From positions 1 through 64,000 of the forward strand of contig JAGCCZ010000033.1 in NCBI GenBank assembly GCA_017651425.1: 64,000 nt of DNA. The letters are read 5' to 3'. Shown in pieces: positions 2,747 to 62,372 of the stretch. The stretch is from Bacteroidales bacterium. GTDB taxonomy: Bacteria > Bacteroidota > Bacteroidia > Bacteroidales > WCHB1-69. Within the stretch, counting starts at the first letter, position 1; every line of letters starts with the position of its first letter. The position numbers and the translations under genes were made by a program. A model generated the notes under the pieces. The model was given only the letters and a program-made list of their open reading frames with translations, ran no database searches and had not been told where the DNA came from.

Positions 2747-2966
2747 AAGCTTCTTCCTCAGTTATTTCCGTGAAACGCTTAATAATTTGACCATCCCTCT
2801 CAACAAAACCATCAAACATCTCTTTGGGACGAACCCAAACCTTGTGATCACCATATAGAGCCTGATATACGACAACTAACGCCAACGACTCACTGTCCTG
2901 ACCAATAGCCAGAACTCTGTATTTGCCACCCTTAAAGTGACGATAGTATCGTGTTTCGTCAGACAT
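2736..2966 (-). CDS. DUF1653 family protein, first gene of cassette
   Basis: The protein has about 76 residues. The pattern YYRHFKGGKYRVL, then ALVVVYQALYG and VWVRPKEMF is the DUF1653 signature, a small beta-rich domain of unknown role found in many bacteria, often as a stand-alone gene. I prefer the ATG at 2966 over the GTG at 2984, because the -7 box at 2989-2996 would place transcription start at or beyond the GTG. It leads a tight three-gene operon with the nuclease and PRTase-like genes, and its stop codon lies inside the nuclease reading frame. Confidence 0.8.
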   Translation of the reverse strand: MSDETRYYRHFKGGKYRVLAIGQDSESLALVVVYQALYGDHKVWVRPKEMFDGFVERDGQIIKRFTEITEEEAYEK

Positions 2967-2988
2967 ATCAATCGTTATATTCACGGTG

Positions 2989-2996
2989 CAAAGATA
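2989..2996 (-). promoter_or_regulatory. -7 element of the DUF1653-nuclease-PRTase operon
   Basis: TATCTTTG on the minus strand, 22 bases before the preferred ATG at 2966. The resulting leader would be very short. Confidence 0.6.
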
Positions 2997-3005
2997 AACT
3001 TTTAA

Positions 3006-3308
3006 TTAAAACAGGCAGGGAATGATGAAAAAATATTCATCCACCAAAAGGTCAGTTGCAATATTATTGATGGAAGTTCCAATAGTAGTTATACTATTAA
3101 TATTGATTATCAAACAGTTAACACTACTCTTAGTTGTATCATTAGTTCCAAGGTTAGTTGCACCATTAGTTGCATCATTATCGCTTCAGATTGTGGAAAT
3201 AAACTCGTCACTTAAGTCTATCTCTGGAGCAAGGAGTTCTTTAACAAGCTGTCGTTCTTTTGAGAACTCTGATTGTACGCTGCTTATAAATACTTTATAT
3301 TTGGGCAT
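3006..3308 (-). pseudogene. Remnant of a DUF4062 / AlbA_2-type gene with internal deletion
   Basis: The 5' part encodes MPKYKVFISSVQSEFSKER and about 20 more residues, the N-terminus of DUF4062 proteins, and then stops. In another frame the following sequence reads DNDATNGATNLGTNDTTKS and ends with a stop at 3006. Asn/Thr/Gly-rich linkers of this kind sit before the C-terminal winged helix of AlbA_2/RecG-like proteins. The simplest reading is that the large middle was deleted, joining the head to a decayed tail. The promoter box at 3354-3361 survives. Base composition is much more AT-rich than the neighbours. An ATG at 3314 is an alternative start. Confidence 0.6.
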
Positions 3309-3353
3309 GTTCATCTTGTTATTTTGTCGGTTTGAAACGTATATTGTAGGCGG

Positions 3354-3361
3354 CAAAAATA
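3354..3361 (-). promoter_or_regulatory. -7 element before the DUF4062 remnant
   Basis: TATTTTTG on the minus strand, about 45 bases upstream of the remnant's ATG. It is apparently intact although the gene is broken. Confidence 0.45.
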
Positions 3362-3385
3362 CGAAAAAAGCGGCGGCTGAGGCAT

Positions 3386-3418
3386 AAAAAAAGAGCCCCA
3401 ACGATTGTTGAGGCTCTT
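3386..3418 (-). terminator. Intrinsic terminator of tRNA-Leu / kdsD transcript
   Basis: Read on the minus strand, AAAGAGCC and GGGCTCTT flank a short loop (with an inner CAAC/GTTG pairing), and the stem runs directly into seven T residues. It begins immediately after the CCA of the tRNA. Confidence 0.85.
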
Positions 3419-49927: not shown

Positions 49928-51277
49928 ATGACCTCCTCCTCCGGCGAAATCACCTCCTCCTTTGAGAAAATCTCCGACACGTTCACCGCGTATGCCGAAA
50001 TACCCTCGCAAGGGTTCAACCGGCTGTTCAAAGCGCAACGGTACGGCAAGTGGTACGTGCTGAAGGGGCTGAAGCCTGAATATCAGCAAAAGGAAGTCTA
50101 TCGCCAGCTGCTCTCCAAAGAGTTTGAACTGGGTGTTCAGATGGAGCACCCCAATATTGCACGCATCTTCAGCAAGGAGAGCTGCGACTCCGTGGCAGGT
50201 CCCTGCGTGGTGATGGAGTATGTGGACGGCTGCACGCTCAAGGAGTTTCTTTCGCAAAAACCGTCGCGTAACACGCGGATGAAGATTGCGAAGGAGATTC
50301 TTTCGGCAATGGCCTATTACCACAGCAAGCAGATCATCCACCGCGACCTGAAACCCGACAACATCCTCATCACGAACAACGGCCACAACGTGAAGCTCAT
50401 CGACTTCGGCTTAGCCGACAGCGACTACCACGGTATCCTAAAGCAGCCGGCTGGTTCCGACAAGTATGCCGCACCGGAACAGAAAGCGGGAAATGTAGCC
50501 ATCGACAACCGCGCCGACATTTACGCCTTCGGGGTCATCCTACGGCAGCTATTCCCACACGATTACGGCGGCATAGTACGCAAATGTACGCAAGCCAACC
50601 GTGAGAAACGGTATAACAACGCGGAGGAGATTCTGCGGCGACTGCAGCGGAGCCGGCAGCTAATCCCCATCTTCATCACTCTGGTCTCTCTGCTTATCAT
50701 CGTGGTGGGCGCGTGGATGTTGTGGCCGATGGCAAGCGAGGTACAATCCGAGCCCTTGACACCAGAGACAGAGGAAATTGCGCCCTCGGTTACACCATCC
50801 GAAAATATTGGGGAACAACAGCAGCTTCAGACTGCGCCGTTGCCTCAAGCGGAACCGGGCAATACGGCTGCGCCAACAACCCAAATGGAAAAGAACAGCC
50901 AAACTGCACAGGAAAAGGAGGTGGATGTGTTTTCGGAAGAGTATATTTACCGACAGATTCCCTCAGAGGCCAAACGGCAGATAGAGCAGTCGCTGGACAC
51001 GCTTTTCCGTCCGTTCTGGGATTGGAACCGGGCTGCGGAGGCGCAGGGGATGGTTCCTATCGACAAGCTTGCGCACTACACCGAGTCCGACTTCTTCAAG
51101 AACAACTATGATATTCGGGAGCGGCACCGGGAGGTGGTGGTGAACGACCTCCTGCGGCGTCACCCGCAGTGCGAACCGGTCAAGGAGAAGGTGACGATGT
51201 ACTACAACGCCCTGTTCGCGAAAAAGATGATTGCTGTGAACAACGTGGTGGTCGGGTGGCAGAAGGCAGTGCGTTAG
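49928..51277 (+). CDS. Transmembrane Ser/Thr protein kinase (Hanks type)
   Basis: This is a 449-residue receptor-like kinase. Cytoplasmic kinase domain 15-240: the glycine loop is degenerate (SQGFNRLF), but the ATP lysine K46, helix-C glutamate E65, catalytic HRDLKPDN at 138-145, DFG at 159-161, AAPE at 181-184 and the D in RADIYAFG are intact. A single span is at about 245-266. The outside part is an E/P/Q-rich linker (270-330) and a helical domain of about 115 residues without recognised PASTA or repeat motifs. Substrates and ligand are unknown. It ends convergently with the large FISUMP gene, overlapping by 4 bases. Confidence 0.9.
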   Translation: MTSSSGEITSSFEKISDTFTAYAEIPSQGFNRLFKAQRYGKWYVLKGLKPEYQQKEVYRQLLSKEFELGVQMEHPNIARIFSKESCDSVAGPCVVMEYVDGCTLKEFLSQKPSRNTRMKIAKEILSAMAYYHSKQIIHRDLKPDNILITNNGHNVKLIDFGLADSDYHGILKQPAGSDKYAAPEQKAGNVAIDNRADIYAFGVILRQLFPHDYGGIVRKCTQANREKRYNNAEEILRRLQRSRQLIPIFITLVSLLIIVVGAWMLWPMASEVQSEPLTPETEEIAPSVTPSENIGEQQQLQTAPLPQAEPGNTAAPTTQMEKNSQTAQEKEVDVFSEEYIYRQIPSEAKRQIEQSLDTLFRPFWDWNRAAEAQGMVPIDKLAHYTESDFFKNNYDIRERHREVVVNDLLRRHPQCEPVKEKVTMYYNALFAKKMIAVNNVVVGWQKAVR

Positions 51278-54200
51278 TCGCGGAGACAGCGGACAGAAAC
51301 AGCGTCAAGTAAAGTCCCTCCCATGTACACCCCTCTTCCACTTTTTTCCATCTGTATTATGTAAATATCGGAATTATTAGATCTAATAGTAGAACTCCAG
51401 AAAAGGGAAATTTCGTTGGTTTCGTGGGGACCGTATGAATAATGGCCAGCGGGGAGAGCCGAAAATCCTGTTGAATTATTGGCGTTCACATCAAATCCTG
51501 GTGAACAAGGATTAATGCTTTGCTGCCAACCTGAAGTGGCGGCCAATGACTGGGCTATGTCATTGCTGCCACATCCGCAACGGTATTCTACTCGACTGCC
51601 CAAAAAGTGTACCAATTGTTCCCATTCCGCTTTACTTGGCACGTGCCATCCTGTAGGGCAAATGCCCTGCACCCCGCTCGGATTGGTATTGCTGGGGGAG
51701 CATCCGTTCATCACGGCATATCTATTGTACAGGTAACCATAGGAAGAAACGAGGCTGCTGTCGTTATTCGGAATAAAACGGTAAGGTTCATAATAGACTG
51801 TTGTTCCAACTGGAATGGCTGTTCCATTAGGAAGGTGCGTGGTGCGGAGGTTCTCTCTCATCCAGCACTGCTGCCCGATAACTACGGTGTGATAAATGTT
51901 GCCATCATAATCGGTCAATGTGGAATCACAGATGAGAGAATCACAAGTGGTGAAACTTTGCTGTTCGCCATAGGCCGTGCCCACGCTGTTGGTGGCGTAG
52001 GCACGCATATAGTAGGTGGTGCCGGGCGTCAATCCGGCCAGATTCTCGGTAAACCTGCCCGTGCCGCTGCCATTTACAGTGTGATTGTCGCTTACGGTAG
52101 GGTTTGGAGCTGTGCTCCAGCAGAATCCCCTCCCGGTCACAGGTGTGCCGCCGCTTGCGGTCACAAAGCCCTTGAACTTGGCCGATGTGGAGGTGATGTA
52201 TTCTGTTTGGGCGGTTGTCACCAAAGGTGTTACTGCATTGGAACTGCCCACACCCGAGTCATCGAGCAGACAGCGGACAGAAGAAGCGTAACAAACAACA
52301 TTTGGCTCCACACTTATTCCGTCATATCTTATTGCAAGTGTAGCCGCGCCATGTAATCCATACGAATAGTGTTCAGTAGCAGAGCGCAAGTGACAACTTG
52401 TTCGATAATTAACAAAGCAAAACTGACATACACCGTTACCAGCGTAGCCCGCAGGAACAGCGGAAAAACCAGTGGCATTGTTGAGAAATTGATTATAGTC
52501 TGCATTGCAAGAGCTGACACCAAGGCATTCCCATCCAATATTGGAGGCCAATGCTCTAATGATGTTACTGGTATCTCCTCCGCACCCATACTGGCCCTGG
52601 CCAGCCACATAGGTGGTCAGTTGAGCGAATTCCGCCTCACTCGGCACATGCCAGCCTGGCGGGCAGATGCCCTGCACTCCGCTTGGATTCTCGGAACTGG
52701 AGGCAGCTCCGTGCATCACCGCAGCCCAATTGTAGAGATAACCGTAAGCAGGCACGTTTACACTGCTGCCTGATGGATAATAGCGATAGGCAGTGTTCTC
52801 TGAAAGCTCCGTTCCGATTGGGATAATGGTTCCGTCAGCATAGTGCGTAGTGCGCAAATTCTCTGTAATCCAGCACTGCTGCCCAATTTCCACCGTATGA
52901 TAGACGTTGCCGTCATAGTCGGTCACGGTGTCGAAACCACAGAAGAATGGAGATGTGGTTGTAAAGCTCCGTTGATCGCCGTAGGCCGTGCCGACGCTGT
53001 TGGTGGCGTAGGCGCGCACATAATAGGTGGTGTCGGGTGTCAGTCCCGTAATATGGCTTGTGAAAACACCGAGGCCGTTGCCGTCATCGGTATGGCTGTC
53101 ATTGAGTGTAGGGTTCTGTGCCGTGCTCCAGCAGACACCCCGGTGGGTCACGTACGCCCCGCCGGTGGCCGTCACATTGCCCGTGACCGTGGCCTTGGAA
53201 GCCTTGACATCCATCACATCCAAGGCAAGTACGGTGGGCATTTCCGCCTGCGTATCAAAATAGAGCACATCCCCGTAGGTGATACCCATCGCCGATTGAG
53301 CGTATGCCTGATAGTAGTAACGGGTGGCCAGCTGCAAGTTGGAGACGGTGTAGTGGAACTGGCCGCTTCCAGCACCGGTTGAATACTCCACAGCACCATT
53401 GAATTGCGTGTTATCTGCGAACAGGAAGCCCCTCTCCGTGACAGGATAGTCGGGATGCTCAGTCAACGAACCATTCAGCTGTCCCTGGGTGCTGGATATA
53501 GCCGTGGCGGCTTCTGTGGTCACCGTCGGCAACGGCAACGTGAAAATCAGCGGAATCAGGTCCGAGCCGTATTGAGCCTGCACTACCGGGACGCTTGCAA
53601 AGTCGCGGCCGGCAAGATGTACATTGCCCACATACGACATCGTGTCACCGTAATGGAACGGCATCGTGCTGTTTCCTTTAGAGCCATTATGCAGATTGTC
53701 CACCCTAAGTGAACCGCCTTTCCCTGTGTATTCGATGCGGCTTTGTCCGGCGTGGCCCGCATTGACCATCATAATCTGAACCACGCCATTCTCAGTACGG
53801 GCGTTCAGCAAATAGGTCTGCGGAGTCGCCAGCCACGCCCGGAACAGGTGTGTCCCCTGGTCGAGTGTGCCTTTGTAGGAGGTCTCCATCCTGCCGCTCA
53901 GGTCATAAATCTCCAACTGCACATTTGATGCTTCTGGCAGTTGTAAGGCAAAGTCCGTCACGCCGATAAAAGGGTTCGGCACATTCTGGAAAAGCCGCAC
54001 ACCTTGGCCGTCCAGACCAGGCTCTGCAATACCAACGCCACCAATATTGAGCACCGTGTCGGGGTAATAGAGCACCTCCTGCCAGCGTTTGGTAAGGTTC
54101 TCCACAAAGACGGTGTTCAACCGCACATACTGGCCGCTCTGGTCCTGCCCGGTGAACTGCAGGCTCACCTGATCCTGCGCGTGCAGGAGGAGAGGAATGG

Positions 54201-54312
54201 CGAAAAACAAAGCCAAAACAAACAAACGATGTAGTAGAGACGTGCCCTGGCGCGTCTCTACAGGAAAACAACCATATATATTTGCATTATCCATATTCAC
54301 AACATTCATCAT
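51274..54312 (-). CDS. Large secreted FISUMP/fibronectin-like multidomain protein
   Basis: The protein has 1012 residues. A signal peptide core LFVLALFFAIPLLLHAQ (about 30-46) follows a long n-region. Residues 105-190 resemble a T9SS sorting-type beta sandwich (LFQNVPNPFIGVTDFALQLPE, LEIYDLSGRM), but near the N-terminus. Three fibronectin-like modules (about 262-355, 358-455, 695-785) with the repeated GLTPxTTYYxRAYATNSVGTAYG pattern alternate with two FISUMP domains (about 456-690, 786-1012; QCWITENLRTTH, GVQGICPPGWHVPSEAE, VRCL). The C-terminus has no sorting domain. Probably surface or secreted, perhaps adhesive or glycan-binding. Other starts (54309, 54294) are possible because a palindrome lies in the signal peptide coding region. 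Confidence 0.8.
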   Translation of the reverse strand: MMNVVNMDNANIYGCFPVETRQGTSLLHRLFVLALFFAIPLLLHAQDQVSLQFTGQDQSGQYVRLNTVFVENLTKRWQEVLYYPDTVLNIGGVGIAEPGLDGQGVRLFQNVPNPFIGVTDFALQLPEASNVQLEIYDLSGRMETSYKGTLDQGTHLFRAWLATPQTYLLNARTENGVVQIMMVNAGHAGQSRIEYTGKGGSLRVDNLHNGSKGNSTMPFHYGDTMSYVGNVHLAGRDFASVPVVQAQYGSDLIPLIFTLPLPTVTTEAATAISSTQGQLNGSLTEHPDYPVTERGFLFADNTQFNGAVEYSTGAGSGQFHYTVSNLQLATRYYYQAYAQSAMGITYGDVLYFDTQAEMPTVLALDVMDVKASKATVTGNVTATGGAYVTHRGVCWSTAQNPTLNDSHTDDGNGLGVFTSHITGLTPDTTYYVRAYATNSVGTAYGDQRSFTTTSPFFCGFDTVTDYDGNVYHTVEIGQQCWITENLRTTHYADGTIIPIGTELSENTAYRYYPSGSSVNVPAYGYLYNWAAVMHGAASSSENPSGVQGICPPGWHVPSEAEFAQLTTYVAGQGQYGCGGDTSNIIRALASNIGWECLGVSSCNADYNQFLNNATGFSAVPAGYAGNGVCQFCFVNYRTSCHLRSATEHYSYGLHGAATLAIRYDGISVEPNVVCYASSVRCLLDDSGVGSSNAVTPLVTTAQTEYITSTSAKFKGFVTASGGTPVTGRGFCWSTAPNPTVSDNHTVNGSGTGRFTENLAGLTPGTTYYMRAYATNSVGTAYGEQQSFTTCDSLICDSTLTDYDGNIYHTVVIGQQCWMRENLRTTHLPNGTAIPVGTTVYYEPYRFIPNNDSSLVSSYGYLYNRYAVMNGCSPSNTNPSGVQGICPTGWHVPSKAEWEQLVHFLGSRVEYRCGCGSNDIAQSLAATSGWQQSINPCSPGFDVNANNSTGFSALPAGHYSYGPHETNEISLFWSSTIRSNNSDIYIIQMEKSGRGVYMGGTLLDAVSVRCLRD
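54234..54261. repeat. Dispersed GAGACG palindrome, copy 3, within a signal-peptide coding region
   Basis: GTAGAGACGTGCC-CT-GGCGCGTCTCTAC: a 13-bp stem with one T/G wobble and a 2-base loop. It encodes ETRQGTSLL in the n-region of the FISUMP protein and resembles the intergenic copies at 5493-5514 and 20259-20282. Confidence 0.8.
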
Positions 54313-54328
54313 TCTTAATTTTCAATTC

Positions 54329-55234
54329 TCAATTCACCACCACCCTGATCCCGTTCGACACACTTTTGGCCTCACCGTTGTATGCATCCCGGCACGTCAC
54401 TCGGCAATAGCTTGGGAGGTAGGTCCACGCGCCGCCGCGCAGCACAAACTTATCTCCCTCATACGAAACCGGATTTGTCTGCGACGTTCCGGAATAGGGA
54501 CCGTACGCGTCCAAACACCATTCCCACAGGTTGCCGCTCATATCGTAAAGTCCCAATTCGTTGGGCTGCTTTTCGCCCACAGGGTGCAATATGCTGCCGG
54601 TGTTGCCCTTGTGCCAGGCCACATCATCCACACTGCTGCTGCCACTGAAGCGGTAATGCCGGGTATAGGAACCACCGCGCGCCGCGAACTCCCATTGGGC
54701 TTCGGTAGGCAGCCGGAAAGGGAGCCGTGTCATCGCGCTCAGTCGATCCGCAAACTGCTGGGCGTCCATCCGCGACACGTTGTAGGCCGGGAACTCGTCG
54801 CCTCTGCCATACTGTTCCGACCAGTCGAGTTCGTAGCCCATTACCGTGCGCCACTCCAGTTGAGTAACCTCATACAGGCCGATATAGTAGCTGTTCAAGG
54901 TCACCTCGTGCACGGGGCTTTCGTTGTCGGCAGCCTCCGGGTCATAGTTGTCGCCCTGCGTGTCGGAGCTCTGAGCGCCCATCTTGAAGGTGCCGCCATC
55001 CACCCGCACCAGGTTGGCAACCAGATTCCTGATTACGGTTTTCTGCTCCTCGCTGATTTCAACATTATCCGCCCAATGTATGATAATGCCGTTGACATTG
55101 TCAACACGGGTGAAATCGTCGTTTTCATAAATATAGTCACCCTGCTCGAAAACAGGGTCTTTTCCGCAGGAGATGGCTGCGAAAATGCCAAAAACAAACA
55201 GCAACGCAAAATATGTCAACTTTCTCAAAATCAT
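54329..55234 (-). CDS. SUMF1/FGE-like domain lipoprotein
   Basis: This protein of about 301 residues has a lipobox (LFVFGIFAAISCGKD, cysteine near residue 23), so it should be an envelope lipoprotein. A linker of about 55 residues is followed by a SUMF1 domain at about 75-301: LVRVDGGTFKMGAQ, EVTQLEWRTVMG, FRLPTEAQWEFAARGG, LGLYDMSGNLWEWC, RGGAWTYLPSYCRVTCRDAY and GIRVVVN. The CxxxC near the end differs from the C-x4-C of catalytic formylglycine enzymes, so it may be structural or ligand-binding. It follows the SUMF1-barrel gene on the same strand and precedes the FISUMP gene by 16 bases. Confidence 0.85.
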   Translation of the reverse strand: MILRKLTYFALLFVFGIFAAISCGKDPVFEQGDYIYENDDFTRVDNVNGIIIHWADNVEISEEQKTVIRNLVANLVRVDGGTFKMGAQSSDTQGDNYDPEAADNESPVHEVTLNSYYIGLYEVTQLEWRTVMGYELDWSEQYGRGDEFPAYNVSRMDAQQFADRLSAMTRLPFRLPTEAQWEFAARGGSYTRHYRFSGSSSVDDVAWHKGNTGSILHPVGEKQPNELGLYDMSGNLWEWCLDAYGPYSGTSQTNPVSYEGDKFVLRGGAWTYLPSYCRVTCRDAYNGEAKSVSNGIRVVVN

Positions 55235-55235
55235 T

Positions 55236-55316
55236 CTCAATTCTTAATTCTCAATTCTTAAGCCGCGCGACCGCACGCCTCTATAATTCTTAATTCTTCA
55301 TTCTTAATTCTTAATT
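55236..55316. repeat. TTAATTCTCAATTC phrase repeats
   Basis: Several imperfect copies of AATTCTTAATTCTCAATTC flank the SUMF1 lipoprotein gene (here and at 54313-54335). In the middle (55261-55282) lies GCCGCGCGACCGCACGCCTCTATAA, possibly a decayed member of the GAGACG palindrome family. Confidence 0.5.
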
Positions 55317-56809
55317 GGCAAACAAACCCCCACCCCCACTCTCGCCCCTACAGCGTATCGTGCATCATTGAGCGCGTTGAGGTTATATACCATACTGATA
55401 GCTTCTGCGGACAACACAAAACTCTTGATATGAAACATCACACCAACCGAAGCCGTTGGTCCGTAATATGTTCTTTTCGGATAGTGGTGCCAGTCCTGGT
55501 CGCTCTCGAATGTGAGGGCGCGGTAGCCGAAACCGGCCCCGATGTGAAGCGAGAGCAACTGATGGGGGCGAACGACCAGCCCGAGTTGGCCGCCCAAGTA
55601 AGTGGTCTTGGAGACACCGGTGAGGACGTAGTGTCCGTTGGACTGGAATGAAGAGAAGGCACCCCGGTAGTGGAAGTTGGTCATCGCGCTGAAATACCAG
55701 CCGAAGAGTTTCACGGTGCCCACCTTGAAGCCGTACGACCATTGCGGCATGGAGGTATAGGCGGCGTTGAGAGTAAGGAAGAAGATTTGCGGCAGGGAGT
55801 CGATGCGGGCCCTCCTTTCGGCGGCCTTACACTTGCGGATCTCGGCCTTCTGTGCTCTTTCGGCGGCTTTCTCCTTGGCAAGGAGTTCCCGTATGGAAAG
55901 ATTTCTGAGTTCCTCTTCATAGCGGTGTTCCTCGTCGGAGGAGGGCTGTTCAGAGGATGGGGGCGACAGTGCCGCCTTGTCGGTGCTATCGGGTAATTCG
56001 GGTTCAAGATCCCAGTCCATGGCCAGCCGGAAGCCCGTAAAGTTGTCGCTGCCGCCCTGGTAGAGGCTTTTGCGGGCGCTCACGCGGCACTGCGGGGCGC
56101 GGCTGTCAGCCCCACCGCCGCGAATCACCCGGGCGATGCCGTCGGTGGCGCCGGAGGGGTTCTCCAAGGCCTTCTCGCCGTACATCCCGTAGAGGTCGCT
56201 GCACCATTCCCACACATTGCCGCTCATGTCATAGAGGTCGCTCCCATTGGGTTTCTTGGTGCCCACGGTGTGCGGGGTTCCGCCGCTGTTGTCGTAGAAC
56301 CAGCCCACGGTGGCGAGGTCGCCGCCGCCGCTGTACAGCAGGGTGCGACCTCCGTCCTGCCAGTCGCCCACCCGCGCGGCGCGCTCCCACTCCGCCTCCG
56401 TGGGGAGACGGTAGTGCATCCCCGTCTTCTGATTCAGCCAAAGGAGGAAAATCTGCACCTCGTCCCAGGAGACGTTCTGCACGGGCAGGTCGTCGCCGAC
56501 AACACGGCTCGGGTTGGTGCCCATGATCGCCTTCCACAGTTTCTGCGTGACCTCATATTTGGCAATGGCAAAGCTTTTGAGGGCGACCTGGTGCGCGGGC
56601 TTCTCGTCGAAGGCGCACTGCCCGGCCTGCTCGAAGGTGCAGCCCATGGTAAACGTCCCGGCGGGGATGACGACCATCTCCAAGCTCACGTTACCCTCAA
56701 GGGAGACATCGTTTTGGGAATAAACATGCAGCGGAAAGAGGGACAGCAAAAGACACACTGCCAGCATCATACACAAAAAAGGACGTGTAGCCGAGATGTT
56801 TTTTGCCAT
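55304..56809 (-). CDS. SUMF1 domain fused to coiled coil and membrane barrel
   Basis: This exported protein of about 501 residues has a signal peptide ending PLHVYSQ (about 1-31). The SUMF1 domain spans about 40-270 (VVIPAGTFTMGCTFEQAG, EVTQKLWKAIMGTNPSR, YRLPTEAEWERAARVG, SDLYDMSGNVWEWCSDLYG, VIRGGG, QCRVSARKSLYQGG). A charged helix of about 60 residues (EEELRNLSIRELLAKEKAAERAQKAE) follows. The last 140 residues are amphipathic strands like a small beta barrel (GYRALTFESDQDW, RVGVGVCLPIKN). Such a fusion would tether a SUMF1 domain at the outer membrane. Start: ATG at 56809, 41 bases after a -7 box. Confidence 0.82.
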   Translation of the reverse strand: MAKNISATRPFLCMMLAVCLLLSLFPLHVYSQNDVSLEGNVSLEMVVIPAGTFTMGCTFEQAGQCAFDEKPAHQVALKSFAIAKYEVTQKLWKAIMGTNPSRVVGDDLPVQNVSWDEVQIFLLWLNQKTGMHYRLPTEAEWERAARVGDWQDGGRTLLYSGGGDLATVGWFYDNSGGTPHTVGTKKPNGSDLYDMSGNVWEWCSDLYGMYGEKALENPSGATDGIARVIRGGGADSRAPQCRVSARKSLYQGGSDNFTGFRLAMDWDLEPELPDSTDKAALSPPSSEQPSSDEEHRYEEELRNLSIRELLAKEKAAERAQKAEIRKCKAAERRARIDSLPQIFFLTLNAAYTSMPQWSYGFKVGTVKLFGWYFSAMTNFHYRGAFSSFQSNGHYVLTGVSKTTYLGGQLGLVVRPHQLLSLHIGAGFGYRALTFESDQDWHHYPKRTYYGPTASVGVMFHIKSFVLSAEAISMVYNLNALNDARYAVGARVGVGVCLPIKN

Positions 56810-56849
56810 AACAGGAATATCTTTGATTAGATTGTGGAGAATCAGGCTG

Positions 56850-56857
56850 CAAAGGTA
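56850..56857 (-). promoter_or_regulatory. -7 element of the SUMF1-barrel gene
   Basis: TACCTTTG on the minus strand. It probably drives the SUMF1-barrel, SUMF1-lipoprotein and FISUMP genes. The region 56858-57003 contains no gene that I can see. Confidence 0.55.
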
Positions 56858-57003
56858 AATAAAATACAAATATACATATATAGTATTTGCCGAATCATGC
56901 CCAATTGCCGCAGCCAGTCTATTCCCGCGCCACTCGCGCGCTGTATGGTAGAACAACACCGGTTTCTGTTATTTGAATTAACATTTATCACAGTTGAATT
57001 TTA

Positions 57004-57011
57004 TATTTTTG
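57004..57011 (+). promoter_or_regulatory. -7 element upstream of the DUF559 element
   Basis: TATTTTTG lies 68 bases before the left arm of the element and 144 before the gene, so a transcript would read through both a hairpin (57051-57070) and the left inverted repeat. Confidence 0.4.
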
Positions 57012-57050
57012 CATTCTCATTGTTGAGCGGAAATGTGCATCATTTTTGTT

Positions 57051-57070
57051 GTCCGCACAACTGTGCGGAC
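57051..57070. repeat. GTCCGCACA hairpin upstream of the DUF559 element
   Basis: GTCCGCACA-AC-TGTGCGGAC is a 9-bp perfect stem without a T-tract, nine bases before the left arm of the element. It could be an operator, an insertion target site or an RNA stem. Confidence 0.5.
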
Positions 57071-57079
57071 ACCCCATGA

Positions 57080-57126
57080 CTCCCCTTCTATTTTAGAAGG
57101 GGTGGCCGAAGGCCGGGGTAGTAATA
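57080..57126. repeat. Left inverted repeat of the DUF559 element
   Basis: This 47-bp arm contains two hairpins: CCCCTTCT-attt-AGAAGGGG and GGCC-gaa-GGCC, followed by GGGGTAGTAATA. The reverse complement matches 57627-57676 with two paired substitutions and three one-base insertions. Confidence 0.85.
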
Positions 57127-57154
57127 TAAACAAACACAATACCTTAGAAAACAA

Positions 57155-57571
57155 ATGACCATCATCAACGGCATCAGAATCAAGGACCGTCCTGTCCATA
57201 ATCTACCAGCAAGCAGTGAACTGTCGGGCTATGCACGCAATAACCGTAAGGCAGGCAATTTGGCGGAAATCGTCTTTTGGCTTCAAGTACACAGAAAATC
57301 CTTCCACGGACTTGATTTTGACAGGCAGAAGGTCATCGGAAATTACATTGTTGATTTTTATGTGAAGAGACTTGGGCTTGTGGTGGAAATAGACGGCGGC
57401 TCCCACAACGAGAAGATGGACTATGATGCACGACGTGATGATTTTTTGGAGGGGCTTGGATTAAAGGTGTTCCGCACGACGGACTACGATGTCTTGCAGC
57501 ATGTGGACATTGTGCTGGAAGACTTGAGGAAATTCATTGTTGAAAATTATGAGCATGAAGATGTCAAATAA
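57155..57571 (+). CDS. DUF559 (Vsr-like) endonuclease-domain protein
   Basis: This 138-residue protein of the PD-(D/E)XK class is related to the very-short-patch repair endonuclease fold. AGNLAEIVFW gives E38, GNYIVDFYV gives D67, and LVVEIDGGSH gives E78, D80 and H84. FDRQKVIGNYIVDF and RRDDFLEGLGLKVFRTT are diagnostic for DUF559. The full-length chain appears intact. No cytosine methyltransferase is adjacent, so a Vsr role in mismatch repair is unlikely. Its placement between inverted repeats suggests a link to mobility or maintenance of that element, which is inference. Confidence 0.9.
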   Translation: MTIINGIRIKDRPVHNLPASSELSGYARNNRKAGNLAEIVFWLQVHRKSFHGLDFDRQKVIGNYIVDFYVKRLGLVVEIDGGSHNEKMDYDARRDDFLEGLGLKVFRTTDYDVLQHVDIVLEDLRKFIVENYEHEDVK

Positions 57572-57626
57572 GGAATCCCCAAAGAATCTTTAATTTCACA
57601 AGGATGGCCTAACGGCCAATCTCTCA

Positions 57627-57676
57627 TATTAACTACCCCGCCCTTCGGGCACCCCTTCTGAAAATCAGAAGGGGAG
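57627..57676. repeat. Right inverted repeat of the DUF559 element
   Basis: This 50-bp arm, the inverse of 57080-57126, begins TATTAACTACCCCG and contains GCCC-ttc-GGGC and ACCCCTTCTG-aaaat-CAGAAGGGG. Against the left arm the inner stem GGCC/GGCC has become GCCC/GGGC, and the outer stem is longer by one G-C pair. Confidence 0.85.
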
Positions 57677-57862
57677 TTTGCGCCTCGCGGCACTGCTGTG
57701 CCACGGGTGTTTATGGGGTACCGCGCCTATTGTATTTGTCTCTCTGGGTCAATATCTATATCATTGCCCTCTATTTTTATTCACGGAGGAGTTTATCGAT
57801 ATTATTCTCCTCCACGAATCGATTTTTGAAGGTTCGTGGAGATTTTTACATGCAACTCGTCG

Positions 57863-58435
57863 TCATTCCCGCACCACTCGCGCCTCCGTAAGCCCTCCTT
57901 TGTTGCCCACCACGAAGAGCGTGGGGGCGTTGCTCCCGTGTACGAAGTTGTCGAGGTAGAGCGGCTCGCCGATGATGAAGCAGGAGCTGTGGAAACTGTC
58001 GCCGGGCTTGAGTTTGGAGTTCTCGCTCTCCACCACTTGGAAAGCCCCCTCACCAAGATGGCGCAGCAGCACCCTGCGGTCGGGCGACCAGGCGATGCGC
58101 ACAAAACCCTCGGCGGGGATGTCGCCAGGGAAGAGGGCACGGCCGAGCACCAGGTTGGAGGATTCGCCCGAGCGGCTGTGGTTGGCCAGGAAATCGTCCC
58201 AGTCGCGGAAGCCTACGCAGCGCGCGAGGATGGAGAGTGTGGAGTAGCGGGTGGTGTCGTAGCCCTCCACATAGCCCCAGATGCGCTTGAGGGTGGTGAT
58301 GCCGAGGGTCTCCTTGCAGCGTTCCTGGATCACGCCGGTGAGGAACTGGAAATCGGCAGGAGTTTTCATTTTGCGGGAGACAGACGCCTCCACCATTTCA
58401 CGGAGTTGCAGGATGGTTGTTTCGTTTGGGGACAT
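57863..58435 (-). CDS. Bacteroidales HTH-like protein of unknown function
   Basis: This protein has about 190 residues. The N-terminal 75 residues (EMVEASVSRKMKTPADFQFL, GITTLKRIWGYVEGYDTTRYSTLSILARCVGF, RDWDDFLA) look like a helix-turn-helix region of a family that I remember as frequent and multi-copy in Bacteroidales. The C-terminal half is beta-rich with RIAWSPDRRVLLRHLGEGAFQVVESENSKLKPGDSFH and GEPLYLDN. Regulatory function is presumed, not proven. A -7 box lies 34 bases upstream. Bases 57677-57862 downstream hold no feature that I can support. Confidence 0.6.
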   Translation of the reverse strand: MSPNETTILQLREMVEASVSRKMKTPADFQFLTGVIQERCKETLGITTLKRIWGYVEGYDTTRYSTLSILARCVGFRDWDDFLANHSRSGESSNLVLGRALFPGDIPAEGFVRIAWSPDRRVLLRHLGEGAFQVVESENSKLKPGDSFHSSCFIIGEPLYLDNFVHGSNAPTLFVVGNKGGLTEARVVRE

Positions 58436-58439
58436 TTTT

Positions 58440-58466
58440 GCGATTTGCAGTTTACGATTTGCGAGA
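58440..58466. repeat. CGATTTGCAGTTTACGATTTGCGA phrase repeat
   Basis: Imperfect repeats of the word TTTACGATTTGCGA. A similar tract lies upstream of the Ser/Thr kinase gene at about 49886-49926 (CTCGCAAATCGAAAATCGTACATCGTAAATCGCAT). Confidence 0.45.
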
Positions 58467-58468
58467 TG

Positions 58469-58476
58469 CAAAAATA
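58469..58476 (-). promoter_or_regulatory. -7 element of the HTH-like gene
   Basis: TATTTTTG on the minus strand, 34 bases before the ATG at 58435. Confidence 0.5.
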
Positions 58477-58592: not shown

Positions 58593-58724
58593 TTAGTTTT
58601 TTTTCCTAAAAAACGCCGCCGCACCGATGACAACTATCAGCACAGTGACAAAGTTCACGAAGAGGGTGAGGATGAGGTGACTCTTTTCGTCTTCAGCTTG
58701 GCGTTTCAACTCATTTGTAAACAT
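58593..58724 (-). CDS. 43-residue single-span membrane microprotein
   Basis: This very small gene encodes MFTNELKRQAEDEKSHL, a hydrophobic helix ILTLFVNFVTVLIVVIGAAAFF and the basic tail RKKN. The layout (charged amphipathic head, one span, positive end) is that of a real single-pass protein and not of random sequence. The start overlaps the last 19 bases of the TerB-like gene, which suggests translational coupling, and it is the final gene of the small-gene operon. Type I toxins, holin-like peptides and membrane effectors share this layout. Which of these it is cannot be decided. Confidence 0.55.
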   Translation of the reverse strand: MFTNELKRQAEDEKSHLILTLFVNFVTVLIVVIGAAAFFRKKN

Positions 58725-59173
58725 TTCATTCTTATTTTTGCGAGAAGGACTGTTTCGTTCACACCTGCCTCGCGGGCGATGTCCTTCAGGTATCCCATCT
58801 CCTCATCGGACAATTCGCCGTCTTCGGCAGCTATTTCTATCATCTGGTCCAGTATGGCCTGGAGATCCGCACGCTCCGCTGCCGCCGCTTTTTCTTCCCC
58901 GCATATATCACAGTCATTCCTGTCAATTGGCTCATTACCGGTTCCGACATTCTGGACAAGGGCGGCGGTTTGTACGCCGGTACCGAGAAGACGGTTGGCC
59001 ACAGGACGCCATTTGATCAGCATCTTGAGGAATTTTATCACGTACAACAATGGGGTCCCAGCGGCGGGAATAAGCGGCGCCACAGACTCAGCCGTCTCCA
59101 GAATGGATTCCAACGGCACGGACTGCATCGCTTTCTGCACTTTCAAGAAGGTATTTTCAGCATCCATGATCAT
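58706..59173 (-). CDS. TerB-like domain protein with CxxC motif
   Basis: This protein has 155 residues. A hydrophobic region at about 32-52 (VAPLIPAAGTPLLYVIKFLKM) may associate with the membrane. A CDICGEE motif (C88, C91) lies in the middle. The C-terminal 50 residues (ILDQMIEIAAEDGELSDEEMGYLKDIAREAGV) match the TerB-like helical, possibly metal-binding, domain. TerB domains occur in tellurite-type stress and phage-response systems. The ATG overlaps the stop of the preceding gene (ATGA). Confidence 0.6.
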   Translation of the reverse strand: MIMDAENTFLKVQKAMQSVPLESILETAESVAPLIPAAGTPLLYVIKFLKMLIKWRPVANRLLGTGVQTAALVQNVGTGNEPIDRNDCDICGEEKAAAAERADLQAILDQMIEIAAEDGELSDEEMGYLKDIAREAGVNETVLLAKIRMKCLQMS

Positions 59174-59487
59174 CCCACAGTCTGAAGTTTTTTAAGGAAA
59201 TCTATCAGATTGCTGACATCCTTGCCTGTTTTCTCCTGGTATTCCTCTAAAGACTTGATGGTGTTGCCGAGTTTCATCCTTTTAATAAGATTGGCGACCA
59301 TGACATCCATAAAGGCTTTTGCGTTGTCTTTGACACGATGTCTCTTTTCGTCGATTTTCCCGAAAGTTTTTTTAGACGCTTTGACGAGTTGGGACGAGCA
59401 GTTCACTACCGCAGCAGAAACGCTCTCCTTTGCATTCTCAAGTCCGTTGCCTAACGAGTCTTTGAAGTTTTTCAATTTGAAGGCCAT
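59170..59487 (-). CDS. Small helical protein, unknown
   Basis: The protein has 105 residues, is basic and almost entirely helical (LKNFKDSLGNGLENAKESVSAAVVNC, DNAKAFMDVMVANLIKRMKLG, SLEEYQEKTGKDVSNLIDFLKKL). No known family. It lies 20 bases after the 141-codon gene and overlaps the TerB-like gene by 4 bases, so it is surely part of the same transcript. Confidence 0.6.
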   Translation of the reverse strand: MAFKLKNFKDSLGNGLENAKESVSAAVVNCSSQLVKASKKTFGKIDEKRHRVKDNAKAFMDVMVANLIKRMKLGNTIKSLEEYQEKTGKDVSNLIDFLKKLQTVG

Positions 59488-59507
59488 AGCAAAAGGATGG
59501 TTAATCG

Positions 59508-59933
59508 TTAAAAATCTAACTTTCCAGCTTTTCTAACCAAAGAGAGGGCATCGTCAATCGCACTGTTCTCTCCCAAAATTTTTCTAAAAAGGTTGAGTTC
59601 GGACATCATTTTGTCATTTCTTTCCTCTTCCGTCAGAAAAACCTCGTCAAAATCTCGGTTAAATTGGTCGGTATCGAAATAATCATCGCATTTCTGTTTC
59701 CGGAAAAGAGAACCTTTACAAGCCCGTTTTTTTACGGCGGCCAAAGATTCCCAAAGCAATCGGAATTCTTCGGGATCCATTCCCAAGCCAACGGCTTTTT
59801 GAGTCAGATAATCCAGGTCTTTTGGTGTGATCTCACTTTTTTTGAGAACGGCACGTGCCAAAGGGCGGAGAGGCTCATACTTTGCAGTGTGGCGAGACCC
59901 CACGTTGGTATTTGCGTCTTTCAAATAATCCAT
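59508..59933 (-). CDS. Small acidic/basic helical protein, unknown
   Basis: The protein has 141 residues and no recognised domain. It contains ITPKDLDYLTQKAVGLGMDPEEFRLLWESLA, reminiscent of a SAP/UBA-like helical hairpin, and a cysteine pair region (RACKGSLFRKQKCDDYF). The final part is acidic. It sits 18 bases after the membrane protein gene and 20 before the next, in the small-gene operon. Confidence 0.55.
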   Translation of the reverse strand: MDYLKDANTNVGSRHTAKYEPLRPLARAVLKKSEITPKDLDYLTQKAVGLGMDPEEFRLLWESLAAVKKRACKGSLFRKQKCDDYFDTDQFNRDFDEVFLTEEERNDKMMSELNLFRKILGENSAIDDALSLVRKAGKLDF

Positions 59934-59951
59934 ATAGTGTGATGTTGGGCT

Positions 59952-60245
59952 TTACAAGAATTCGATGATGCAAGCCACTGCTGCAGGGATGCAGAAAAAC
60001 ATGAAGGCATAGCTCAGTGCGGTGAAAACGCGGCTGTCGAAAAGGTCCACGCTGCTTTTCACCCAAAACCAGCGCGGCGGCACGGTTTCAGCCCAGCCGG
60101 TGAAGCCGATGATAAGGCCGAGCAGTGCCGAACCGGCACCCGCATAAAGCACCCAGTCCTCAATGTCGCCCATGGCAAAATAACCTATAGCTGCAATAAG
60201 GACAATGGGGCTGATAATGTTTAAAATCCAAAGAAGTACTTTCAT
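59952..60245 (-). CDS. Small three-span membrane protein
   Basis: The protein has 97 residues with three hydrophobic stretches (LLWILNIISPIVLIAAIGYFA, WVLYAGAGSALLGLIIGFTG, ALSYAFMFFCIPAAVACIIEFL). The ATG at 60245 removes an upstream extension without coding character. Family unknown. The gene lies between cytosolic small proteins in the operon, so it could form the membrane component of a complex. Confidence 0.65.
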   Translation of the reverse strand: MKVLLWILNIISPIVLIAAIGYFAMGDIEDWVLYAGAGSALLGLIIGFTGWAETVPPRWFWVKSSVDLFDSRVFTALSYAFMFFCIPAAVACIIEFL

Positions 60246-60295
60246 AGACTTGTTTTTAACAAAGTGGGGCAATATGCCCCACTTTGTCTGAAAAA

Positions 60296-60532
60296 TTACT
60301 TGCCTTCGGCAAAATCCAACAATTTCTTTCCGAGCTGTTGGACCGTCCAGTCCGGATCGAATTTGAATCCGGCCTTGGTCGCCAACTCTCTCAAAGCAGC
60401 TTTCACGGAGCCGCATTTTTCAACCATCTCCTTGCTCACTTCGATGGAGTTGTCTTCGTTTTGCCAAACCATGTGACCGGCAATCTTTTTGCCTCTTTTC
60501 TTGTCACCTTTTGTGATTTTTCCAGTTGCCAT
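60296..60532 (-). CDS. Small basic protein, unknown
   Basis: The protein has 78 residues. The lysine-rich N-terminus (MATGKITKGDKKRGKKIAGH) is followed by a short helical part (KAALRELATKAGFKF, TVQQLGKKLLDFAEGK). It could bind nucleic acid through the basic head. No family is recognised. It belongs to the small-gene operon, 50 bases before the membrane protein gene. Confidence 0.5.
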   Translation of the reverse strand: MATGKITKGDKKRGKKIAGHMVWQNEDNSIEVSKEMVEKCGSVKAALRELATKAGFKFDPDWTVQQLGKKLLDFAEGK

Positions 60533-60613
60533 AAAAAACGTTTTTTAATGCATTAGTGCCTACTCTTTTCCGGATTTTCGGCGGCCTCCTTTAATCTGAT
60601 TGTATTCAATGTT

Positions 60614-61096
60614 TTAACGCATTGCGAAATATGCGACGATACCCAAAATGATGATGGCGAGAATCAGCCAGAGAAGCCAGTTGAATTTCTTCTTTTCCGA
60701 AAGAACCTCCAAACGGTAGTTGCCACGCTTGCCAGCCCCTTTTTCCGTTTCACTGACTTCAAAATCAATATCATATCGCTGTGCCAATTGCGTGATTTTC
60801 TGGAATTTGTCGGCGGGCCACATCGGATTGGTAAAGGCCACTTTTGTCCCGTCTTTCAGGGTCAGGAACATGTCCATATCCCCAACTTGCTTGGCGAGTT
60901 TTTCTTCAAAATCGCCCGACTTCTTCTTGCCCGAAATGTTGTCCACAGAATCGATTTCGTTGCCGATTTCATTTTTCGGGAATGCTTTCTGCAAATCGGC
61001 AAGTGTGGCGTTCGGGTGCATTTCAAGATAAGCCGCCACAATTCCCAAGGCCGTCCATTTCTGTGACTGGCCATAAACTTTGATTCGTTTTGCCAT
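60614..61096 (-). CDS. Tail-anchored protein with HTH-like N-terminus
   Basis: This 160-residue protein begins with KRIKVYGQSQKWTALGIVAAYLEMHPNATLADLQKAFP, which looks like a small winged-helix or SAP-like region. A mixed alpha/beta segment follows, and the C-terminus has one hydrophobic helix (FNWLLWLILAIIILGIVAYFAMR), as in tail-anchored proteins. Role unknown. It is separated by 21 bases from the coiled-coil gene upstream. Membrane tethering of a DNA- or protein-binding head is a reasonable inference. Confidence 0.6.
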   Translation of the reverse strand: MAKRIKVYGQSQKWTALGIVAAYLEMHPNATLADLQKAFPKNEIGNEIDSVDNISGKKKSGDFEEKLAKQVGDMDMFLTLKDGTKVAFTNPMWPADKFQKITQLAQRYDIDFEVSETEKGAGKRGNYRLEVLSEKKKFNWLLWLILAIIILGIVAYFAMR

Positions 61097-61117
61097 CGTA
61101 ATTTTTTTTTTAGTTTG

Positions 61118-61375
61118 TTATCTCTTTTTCTTCTCACGCAGTTTTGCAAGGTCTTCTTTCAGCTGGGCTAAAATCTCCTTGTTTCTTTTCATCGTGTGTT
61201 CAAGCCCTTCGTATGTCACGGACTTTTTGCCAACGGCCTTGTTGTATGCTTTTGCGTCGGCAATGCTTCTTTTCGCGGAATCGATTTTTGCTTTCAGATC
61301 CTCAATCTGCTTTTTTTTAGAAGCAATTTGCTTGTCGATGTCATCTTTTGATGAACGGAAAAATAAAAATCCCAT
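61118..61375 (-). CDS. Short coiled-coil protein
   Basis: This 85-residue protein is dominated by a coiled coil (IDKQIASKKKQIEDLKAKID and EILAQLKEDLAKLREKKKR), with a highly charged surface. No enzymatic motif. It is the second gene of the small-gene operon, 30 bases after the GIY-YIG-like gene. Confidence 0.6.
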   Translation of the reverse strand: MGFLFFRSSKDDIDKQIASKKKQIEDLKAKIDSAKRSIADAKAYNKAVGKKSVTYEGLEHTMKRNKEILAQLKEDLAKLREKKKR

Positions 61376-61405
61376 AGTCGTTTCTTTTTATTTGAAGGTG
61401 TTCCT

Positions 61406-61936
61406 TTACTTTTTCAAATCAGCTCTCAACTGTTTCAGCTCTGCAATCCATTCGGGAGGCACCGTGTTGTTCTTGCTGATGTTGAGCGGATAGGCGAACT
61501 TATGTTGGGCAAGTTCCTCTGTTTCGCGGCATTCTGCCTGTTCCACGGTCTCGGTGTATTCCCATTCCCAGAAACAGCTGTCGATCAGCTTGTTGACGAT
61601 TGCTTCGGCTGTGTTGTCATCCGCGTCTGGAGCAATAATAGCCCGCAACGTCCTTCGCAGCGTGGAACTCTTGAACGGACCGCGGATATGCCAGCGGATA
61701 CGCCGACTCATGTCGTTGCTGATGCCGAAATATAACGCAAGATAAGGCGCTCCTTGAATAGAACGTTCTTGCAATTTCCTGTCGTCTATCAAAGTGCGAT
61801 TCTTGAAATTAGCCAATAGTTTTTTTGCTTCAGCTTTGGGAAACCACCAGCGATAGACGCCGGGGCGTTTTTCCACCTCCGAACATCGGTTTTGAATCTG
61901 TTGCCGTATCAATGCTGCGAATTGTAGATTTTTCAT
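61406..61936 (-). CDS. GIY-YIG-like nuclease domain protein
   Basis: This 176-residue protein starts with a helical segment, then RPGVYRWWFP (GVY at 26-28) and ALYFGISNDMSRRIRWHI (YFG at 69-71, with the R of the metal-binding helix). Near the C-terminus are an acidic TEEL (E140/E141) and YPLNISKNN, where GIY-YIG proteins place the metal-binding glutamate and asparagine. It is the first gene of the small-gene operon, with a long leader. Related proteins are recorded in Bacteroidales as GIY-YIG family members without known function. Activity as a nuclease is inferred. Confidence 0.7.
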   Translation of the reverse strand: MKNLQFAALIRQQIQNRCSEVEKRPGVYRWWFPKAEAKKLLANFKNRTLIDDRKLQERSIQGAPYLALYFGISNDMSRRIRWHIRGPFKSSTLRRTLRAIIAPDADDNTAEAIVNKLIDSCFWEWEYTETVEQAECRETEELAQHKFAYPLNISKNNTVPPEWIAELKQLRADLKK

Positions 61937-62194
61937 ATTTTAATGTTGATAATCATTGATGAACATACTGCAAAAGCTTCACTGGCAGGCACAAAAAAGG
62001 CGCGGCCTGTCTTTGTCGTCAAAGAGGTTCTAGCAAAACCCAAGCAGAAAACAAAAAACAATCCACGCCTGTTGCAGACATGATCACTGTAATTGCTTTT
62101 CTGCTGTTGGTTAAAATTTGCTAGATTTCTTTGACAAACAAAAAGCGATTGCACGATAACAAAAGAACGTCAGTTTTCCGTGGAAAACATGCTG
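61937..62194 (-). promoter_or_regulatory. Structured leader of the small-gene operon (no gene seen)
   Basis: No convincing coding sequence occurs here; a 73-codon frame is short, cysteine/phenylalanine-rich and lacks a plausible ribosome site. On the minus strand AGGCGTGG (62063-62070) can pair with CCGCGCCT (61999-62006), directly followed by six T residues, giving a possible attenuator or sRNA terminator about 60 bases before the first gene. Between them is the sequence GGGTTTTGCTAGAACCTCTTTGACG. Confidence 0.35.
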
Positions 62195-62202
62195 CAAAAA
62201 TA
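62195..62202 (-). promoter_or_regulatory. -7 element of the small-gene operon
   Basis: TATTTTTG on the minus strand, 259 bases before the GIY-YIG-like ATG. A second TATTTTTG occurs at 62282-62289, followed by a GTGAAAT/ATTTCAC hairpin (62252-62277). Confidence 0.45.
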
Positions 62203-62289
62203 TAAAAAAATCATACACAAGCGTGAATTGTGTTTTTTTTCAAAGAACGGCGTGAAATCCGTTGCATGTAATTTCACACCGCAAAAATA

Positions 62290-62372
62290 ACAACTTGATG
62301 GATTGGATGTTTGGTCCGAATTGGTCCGAATTAGCTATTAGCCGTTAGCTATTGGCATTAGCTGTTGGCAGC
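62290..62372. repeat. Simple phrase repeats between divergent genes
   Basis: TTGGTCCGAATTGGTCCGAATT is a direct repeat, followed by TAGCTATTAGCCGTTAGCTATTGGCATTAGCTGTTGGC, made of imperfect copies of TAGCTATTGGC. A weaker relative lies at 17971-17989. Confidence 0.55.

Follow-up and report, generated by a model that had tools for sequence, protein, structure and literature searches.

A compact, cassette-built operon of Bacteroidales combining a GIY-YIG nuclease-family protein with predicted membrane parts

We analysed a window of 64,000 nucleotides (contig JAGCCZ010000033.1, positions 1 to 64,000 of the forward strand; assembly GCA_017651425.1, Bacteroidales bacterium, WCHB1-69, of gut or rumen) in which nine small open reading frames (ORFs), g1 to g9, run along the minus strand from 61936 to 58593. 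These genes are a compact form of fuller gene clusters that occupy at least 80 places in Bacteroidales genomes. The cluster family is restricted to Bacteroidales, is undescribed in the literature searched, and its hallmark proteins have no family in the libraries searched. We tentatively read the operon as a compact member of this cassette-built family, encoding what would be an inner-membrane complex with an exchangeable nuclease whose most likely role is against phage or mobile DNA; we place this reading somewhat short of an even chance. Its observed basis is a conserved gene set, co-inheritance, purifying selection, the swapping of both the nuclease and the 3' cassette and, in the fuller forms, the hallmark gene g3 fused to an OmpA domain beside ion channels or KAP NTPases.

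Conservation and modularity of the operon

An earlier note on this DNA had described a nine-gene run at 58593-61936 without stating its strand. All nine ORFs are present there, with lengths from g1 to g9 of 176, 85, 160, 78, 97, 141, 105, 155 and 43 amino acids (aa), separated by gaps of 30, 21, 81, 50, 18 and 20 bp and then overlapping by 4 and 19 bp. Eight of the nine proteins have relatives outside the window, g9 being the exception. The operon is more than a chance arrangement, because relatives of g1-g6 in sister genomes keep the same order and strand and because the ratios of nonsynonymous to synonymous substitution (dN/dS) are low. The single operon proposed in the note holds as a group of real, co-occurring families but not as a fixed set: the operon is modular, with g1 and g3-g5 as its stable part, g2 and g6 present in some loci and absent from others, and g7-g9 forming a 3' cassette that can be exchanged.

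A scan for g3 in a species-level genome collection gave 134 places, the best 80 of which were kept for analysis. All of these best 80 are in Bacteroidales, mostly in metagenome-assembled genomes from rumen and gut, and at least one is in an isolate (Muribaculaceae Isolate-104, locus L069). Bacteroidales dominate gut and rumen. Among 148 related genomes g3 is patchy, being present in 17 including the window's own; a g3 profile that included the OmpA part matched 147 of the 148 and was excluded from counting, since the generic OmpA domain caused the matches. Profile annotation covered 88 neighbourhoods, and the family table covers 87 g3 loci.

Sister genomes keep the order GIY-(g2)-g3-g4-g5-(g6) at protein identities of 57-100%. 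The order GIY-g3-g4-g5 occurs in ten loci (nine by profile annotation, and L053 with its g5 taken from the stretch it shares with L032), while L052 has all four genes in a different order. Across the 148 relatives, g5 was found in 16 of 17 g3 genomes and 9 of 131 others (p 3e-14), g4 in 14 of 17 and 5 of 131 (p 5e-13), and GIY in 10 of 17 and 5 of 131 (p 5e-8); these p-values ignore phylogeny, and the g3 genomes are clumped in few genera. The note had asked whether the genes occur independently elsewhere; the core genes are instead co-inherited, and mostly undescribed families recur together with g3 across loci.

Purifying selection is evident from dN/dS of 0.01-0.2 for g1, g4, g5 and g6. The slowest-evolving gene is g4 (0.01-0.09), followed by g5 (0.04-0.11), g6 (0.13) and g1 (about 0.2); g3 gave 0.11-0.14 at larger distance, and there were too few changes for an estimate in g2, or in g3 against its nearest relative, L047. 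Synonymous divergence (dS) from L047 was 0.09 for g1, 0.01 for g3, 0.32 for g4, 0.89 for g5 and 0.94 for g6. Because dS jumps between neighbouring genes while dN/dS stays at 0.02-0.2 for g1, g4, g5 and g6, we take the genes to be recombined yet selected cassettes. Some GIY genes open with the first codons of a g4 paralogue (MAAESAISGEYIIQKEES in L028), a trace expected from recombination at gene starts.

The 3' cassette has been replaced outright between sister genomes. In L045 and L047 an EcsC-TerB gene stands in place of g7-g9, and synteny with the window ends at the end of g6 (about 59520). Within the window the cassette opens with g7 (59170-59487), an amphipathic helical protein that together with g8 makes up an exchangeable pair, of which it is the first member; its relatives have relatives of g8 as partners in L043 and L044, and in L060 the partner is a g8-like N-terminus next to g5. 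The second half, g8 (58706-59173), has a hydrophobic helical N-terminus and a TerB-like C-terminus with a CxxC motif between them. The earlier TerB-like call on g8 is supported by a match to Pfam TerB (E 1.8e-4, 22.2 bits), albeit one below the cut-off of 24.4; g8 also matches a PHROG tellurite resistance family (1e-4) and has a homologue in L044. The last ORF, g9 (58593-58724), is a possible single-span microprotein overlapping g8 by those 19 bp. It is an ORF call with a marginal coding score (3.0) and no homologue among the fetched loci, and is the weakest and only doubtful member of the operon.

Proteins of the operon and of its fuller relatives

No protein from g2 to g9 exceeded the cut-off of any family in Pfam, NCBIfam, PADLOC or PHROG, g8 falling narrowly under that for TerB. 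The first gene, g1 (61406-61936), matches Pfam GIY_YIG_2 (E 4.5e-16, 59.6 bits; curated cut-off 22.4), and the motif positions GVY 26-28, YFG 69-71, R78/R79/R81, E138 and N152 are invariant in eight relatives. The nuclease call made in the note therefore stands, and g1 is, as far as its residues indicate, probably an active GIY-YIG protein. It agrees with the GIY-YIG superfamily in exceeding the cut-off and keeping the motif residues, and departs from it in being encoded not as a lone gene but within a multi-gene operon that includes membrane proteins. A search of solved structures gave no credible PDB relative of g1 or GIY by sequence.

A GIY gene is the head or nuclease-slot gene in 19 g3 loci, the window included, and occurs within full clusters too (L054, L057, L080, L084, L087, L092, L093 and L124). 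GIY relatives without g3 were found in up to five genomes; three adjoin a conserved 143-150-aa protein, one of these also a coiled coil, and this is a second, smaller setting for the nuclease. At L179, L180 and L181 such relatives lie beside the 143-150-aa protein (e.g. MSTIYLISCSKSK...), once with genes of the small bg proteins described below.

The hallmark protein, g3 (60614-61096), combines an alpha/beta domain, read as cytosolic, with a C-terminal transmembrane helix (138-159). Most relatives continue from the helix into an OmpA-type peptidoglycan-binding domain that the window's g3 lacks. No Pfam, NCBIfam or PADLOC family matched it. The AlphaFold model (pLDDT 85) has the alpha/beta domain and then, at 138-159, a long helix that we take to cross the membrane; fold searches with the model gave no Foldseek match below E 0.27 and reached a Z of at most 3.7 in VIA-align, and a search of solved structures with the long form of g3 returned OmpA relatives only. 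The fold is left unassigned because no structural match was confident, and the absence of a match is no proof of a new fold. The label of HTH-like protein given to g3 in the note found support in no library and we rejected it, as neither library scans nor fold searches with the model gave such a match.

The remaining core proteins are smaller. The short coiled-coil protein g2 (61118-61375) has generic coiled-coil matches only and occurs in five g3 loci including the window, in varying position: after GIY in L045 and L047, elsewhere in L050 and L052. The small basic protein g4 (60296-60532) has a beta hairpin and three helices and is a single copy of a usually tandem domain found in 49 of the 88 loci; its model (pLDDT 78) shows the beta hairpin plus helices and had no match among solved folds. 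The three-span membrane protein g5 (59952-60245) carries a VPPRWFW motif that is near-invariant in the family alignment. The helical protein g6 (59508-59933) has relatives in ten loci at profile level, among them TerB-like helical segments of other clusters, some of them inside LRR/TerB-like fusions; its identity is 77-79% in L025 and L026.

The fuller clusters are richer in parts. Among the 87 g3 loci, an OmpA-fused g3 was found in 72, bg in 66, TerB in 51, a basic protein in 50, a coiled coil in 49, g4 in 46, an ion channel in 44, PD-(D/E)XK in 31, g5 in 30 and GIY in the 19 already mentioned. If the table is summed without the flanking gene 'up' (described below) and with fusions entering more than once, 734 of the 738 family assignments share the strand of g3. 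A full cluster has the rough order HTH, tandem g4, PD-(D/E)XK, small basic protein, TerB, g3-TM-OmpA, bg, coiled coil cc5, and ion channel or KAP NTPase, the last adjoining some clusters. Identities in the relatives include OmpA (3.7e-19), Ion_trans (1.4e-19) and TerB, TerB9 and EcsC-TerB proteins above the Pfam cut-off, and in the neighbours KAP_NTPase (2.3e-35), DUF4230 (2e-29) and Pkinase (4e-33). The nuclease slot holds either GIY-YIG or PD-(D/E)XK; the common form of the latter stays under the PDDEXK_4 cut-off and another form passes it. Some clusters have no recognised nuclease.

Several parts are fused to one another: g4 to g3-OmpA in L036, L063 and L078, bg to g3-OmpA in L085, L099, L104 and L105, and g3 to bg in L038 and L041. 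The bg proteins are possibly beta-grasp or ubiquitin-like, an impression drawn from their sequences. The OmpA domains of long g3 proteins keep GHT, LSxxRA and NRR in 71 of 73 cases. In ZorB, His, Leu and Arg residues are required for wall binding and defence (PMC11890865), and the motif residues of long g3 appear to be of the same kind, a correspondence by motif and not by superposition.

The window's own genome also carries two remnants of related loci: L125 (G000:C74:2119-2376), a g5 pseudogene that contains a stop and lies close to a DUF805b RNA element, and L126 (G000:C3), a g4-domain gene beside a PD-(D/E)XK gene.

A recurrent RNA element and an exchange slot

A DUF805b RNA element (Rfam RF02914) lies at 60557-60591 on the minus strand, 24 nt before the start codon of g4, and forms a two-stem pseudoknot. 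It is a member of the family above the gathering score (41.9 bits, E 1.7e-9; gathering score 35.6). The two stems covary in 18 elements, with 95.2% of pair cells standard and none of 500 shuffles as high, although the structure was read from the same 18 sequences, which favours it. The element precedes the 78-aa type of g4 in seven of the eight other compact loci scanned (L045, L046, L047, L048, L049, L050 and L052) and was not found before g4 in L053, whose g3 is truncated. Elsewhere it stands ahead of g3, cc5, PD-(D/E)XK, DUF4230 and LRR genes, in most cases at a distance of 18-26 nt from the start codon. The window's genome has two copies, the second at G000:C74:233-267 on contig 74, beside the g5-pseudogene remnant. 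DUF805b is not specific to g3 clusters, as it exceeds the cut-off in 85 of the 148 relatives. A link with g4 or with these clusters was not found in the literature searched, and this candidate regulatory RNA thereby gains a gene context. Very different small genes of the clusters follow it in, for example, L124, L041, L171 and L174.

A second recurrent element, a conserved 5' leader at 61965-62334 (minus strand), contains a long imperfect hairpin (core at 61993-62063) that ends in a T run. Over 371 bp, the leader before g1 is 94% identical to that of L041, where bg genes follow. The 71-nt hairpin core has 15 copies in 14 of the 148 genomes. Copies of the leader precede at least five cargos: GIY operons, bg/TerB clusters, a set of small protein, GIY and coiled coil, an ATP-grasp-like set with cc5, and lipoprotein-type genes. 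No compensatory change supporting a structured RNA was seen in the fold of six sequences. The hairpin could be a shared promoter or attenuator, or a recombination point. Behind the same leader, L183 (reverse strand, 2133-3413) and L188 have a small peptide gene and then an ATP-grasp-like gene, a pair whose sequences are reminiscent of a graspetide (RiPP) precursor and its ligase.

Outside the operon on its other side, 'up' (57863-58471, minus strand) is a recurrent neighbour that has no Pfam family, is present in 40 of the 88 loci, and is often accompanied by genes for a membrane Ser/Thr kinase or for FGE-sulfatase. Between the leader and the 'up'-FGE-FGE genes, where the window has the operon, L184 has a quite different cargo, which points to an exchange slot. 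The cargos of this probable hot spot of exchange lend themselves to direct comparison. At 51274-58471 of the window, 'up', two FGE-sulfatase-type proteins and a 1012-aa protein recur as a module, often joined by a membrane Ser/Thr kinase, that is found beside many g3 clusters and beside other cargo. A small plus-strand gene at 57155-57571, adjoining the slot, resembles DUF559/very-short-patch-repair type endonucleases and is a candidate of that kind.

Possible roles and competing explanations

If the operon acts against phage or mobile DNA, g3, with its cytosolic domain on a membrane helix, and the three-span g5 would form a membrane core, at which the TerB-like g6 and g8, g7 and the coiled coil g2 may sense or scaffold. 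An envelope or invasion signal would then lead the GIY-YIG protein to cut DNA, either invading or the cell's own. Such a scheme would resemble Zorya in coupling membrane or wall sensing to a swappable nuclease, in non-homologous parts.

The comparison with Zorya is one of logic, not membership. Like Zorya, the full clusters have an OmpA-type wall-binding membrane protein, channel-type membrane proteins and an exchangeable nuclease. However, similarity to ZorB is confined to the OmpA domain of the relatives (9e-8), the N-terminal domain of g3 being unrelated, and the TM-plus-OmpA arrangement of ZorB, which most relatives have, is missing from the g3 of the window. No MotA/ExbB-type ZorA is present in the operon, the weak ZorA matches being to an amphipathic, coiled-coil-like protein among the neighbours, and PADLOC gave no ZorC/D or ZorE match in the operon. 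With TerB/TerY-P systems, including CoCoNuTs, the common features are TerB-like helical proteins, a nearby Ser/Thr kinase, coiled coils and nucleases, but no vWA TerY, PP2C phosphatase, zinc-ribbon kinase, McrB/McrBC core or helicase was found in the operon or its recurrent neighbours. Among PADLOC candidates, the EcsC part of the sister 3' cassette in L045/L047 is PDC-S29 (1.4e-71), the KAP NTPase beside some clusters resembles PifA/PDC-S20, and the g3 domain of one long relative is weakly similar to PDC-S57 (0.0087). PDC-S29, PDC-S57 and PDC-S20 are, PifA apart, predicted single-gene candidates, and none matches the window's own proteins. A known defence system was rejected, as PADLOC on the nine proteins and their neighbours gave only candidates or superfamily-level kinase and ATPase matches.

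Several observations weigh against a defence role. The full machine is absent from the window, since its operon has no OmpA domain on g3, no ion channel, no TerB9 and no bg proteins. The PDC families are themselves candidates by guilt by association. An envelope-stress role would account just as well for the kinase, DUF4230 and FGE neighbours. The earlier note had guessed at a defence or stress complex of nuclease, TerB-like and membrane parts; these kinds of part, and coiled coils, do occur in the fuller relatives, but for defence itself PADLOC gave no meaningful match on the nine proteins, and the flanks are not classic defence islands, being mostly housekeeping with PADLOC matches mainly to superfamily-level kinases (without a matched control set).

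A bolder form of the defence reading is doubtful: a new class of Bacteroidales conflict system, in which a wall-tethered inner-membrane g3 machine would work with small bg proteins, TerB sensors, an ion channel or KAP ATPase and a plug-in nuclease, some parts being set by DUF805b RNAs, and the window would hold a stripped-down GIY-YIG form. If true, it would add a wall-tethered, plug-in-nuclease system to the few known, such as Zorya, and explain a set of orphan families at once.

The alternative that survives best is an envelope-stress or signalling complex, in which the kinase, FGE-like proteins, DUF4230 lipoproteins, OmpA-g3 and TerB would sense wall or membrane damage and the nuclease would serve DNA repair or processing. 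We put it well short of an even chance, yet it is a serious competitor and close behind defence, since genes for kinase, FGE and DUF4230 rank with the most frequent neighbours and the flanks are not defence islands. Among the 87 g3 loci a kinase lies beside 31 and 'up' beside 39, and 146 flanking proteins include 12 DUF4230, 11 Pkinase and 5 FGE. PMC11090510, citing Anantharaman 2012, ties Ter-linked triads to tellurite resistance, signalling and DNA processing, which also favours this explanation, and DUF805b suggests regulated expression. However, a high turnover of cassettes, a patchy distribution and the exchange of nucleases would sooner be expected of conflict systems than of a housekeeping response to stress, and 'up' and FGE also stand beside other cargo without the operon, so they may merely mark the exchange slot. 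A stress machine, if true, would be an unrecognised envelope-to-DNA route in Bacteroidales.

It is improbable that the locus is an accessory-gene array, that is, a collection of unrelated small cargo genes at a hot spot of exchange, comparable to arrays of acquired immunity genes and forming no common complex. The leader shared by at least five cargos, DUF805b before many different small genes, the swapped 3' cassette and the dS mosaic would all be consistent with one. Yet loci from several Bacteroidales families hold the same protein families side by side, fusions join segments of g3, g4, bg and TerB-like proteins, g4 and g5 accompany g3 far more often than chance would allow, and library scans found no recombinase or immunity family in the operon.

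Slightly less probable again is that the nuclease, of restriction or homing type, is the working part and the other genes are regulators or bystanders, as the g3-less GIY relatives might suggest; conservation is stronger in g4 and g5 than in the nuclease, and there are clusters that have PD-(D/E)XK in its place or no recognised nuclease. A degraded prophage or mobile-element fragment, a possibility raised in the note, is very improbable and we set it aside: small overlapping genes superficially resemble phage modules and transposase-like genes lie near one relative (L032/L053), but viral contigs and phage records held no g3 or GIY match, plasmids no g3 match and PHROG no convincing match for the operon proteins, and the frames are open and under purifying selection.

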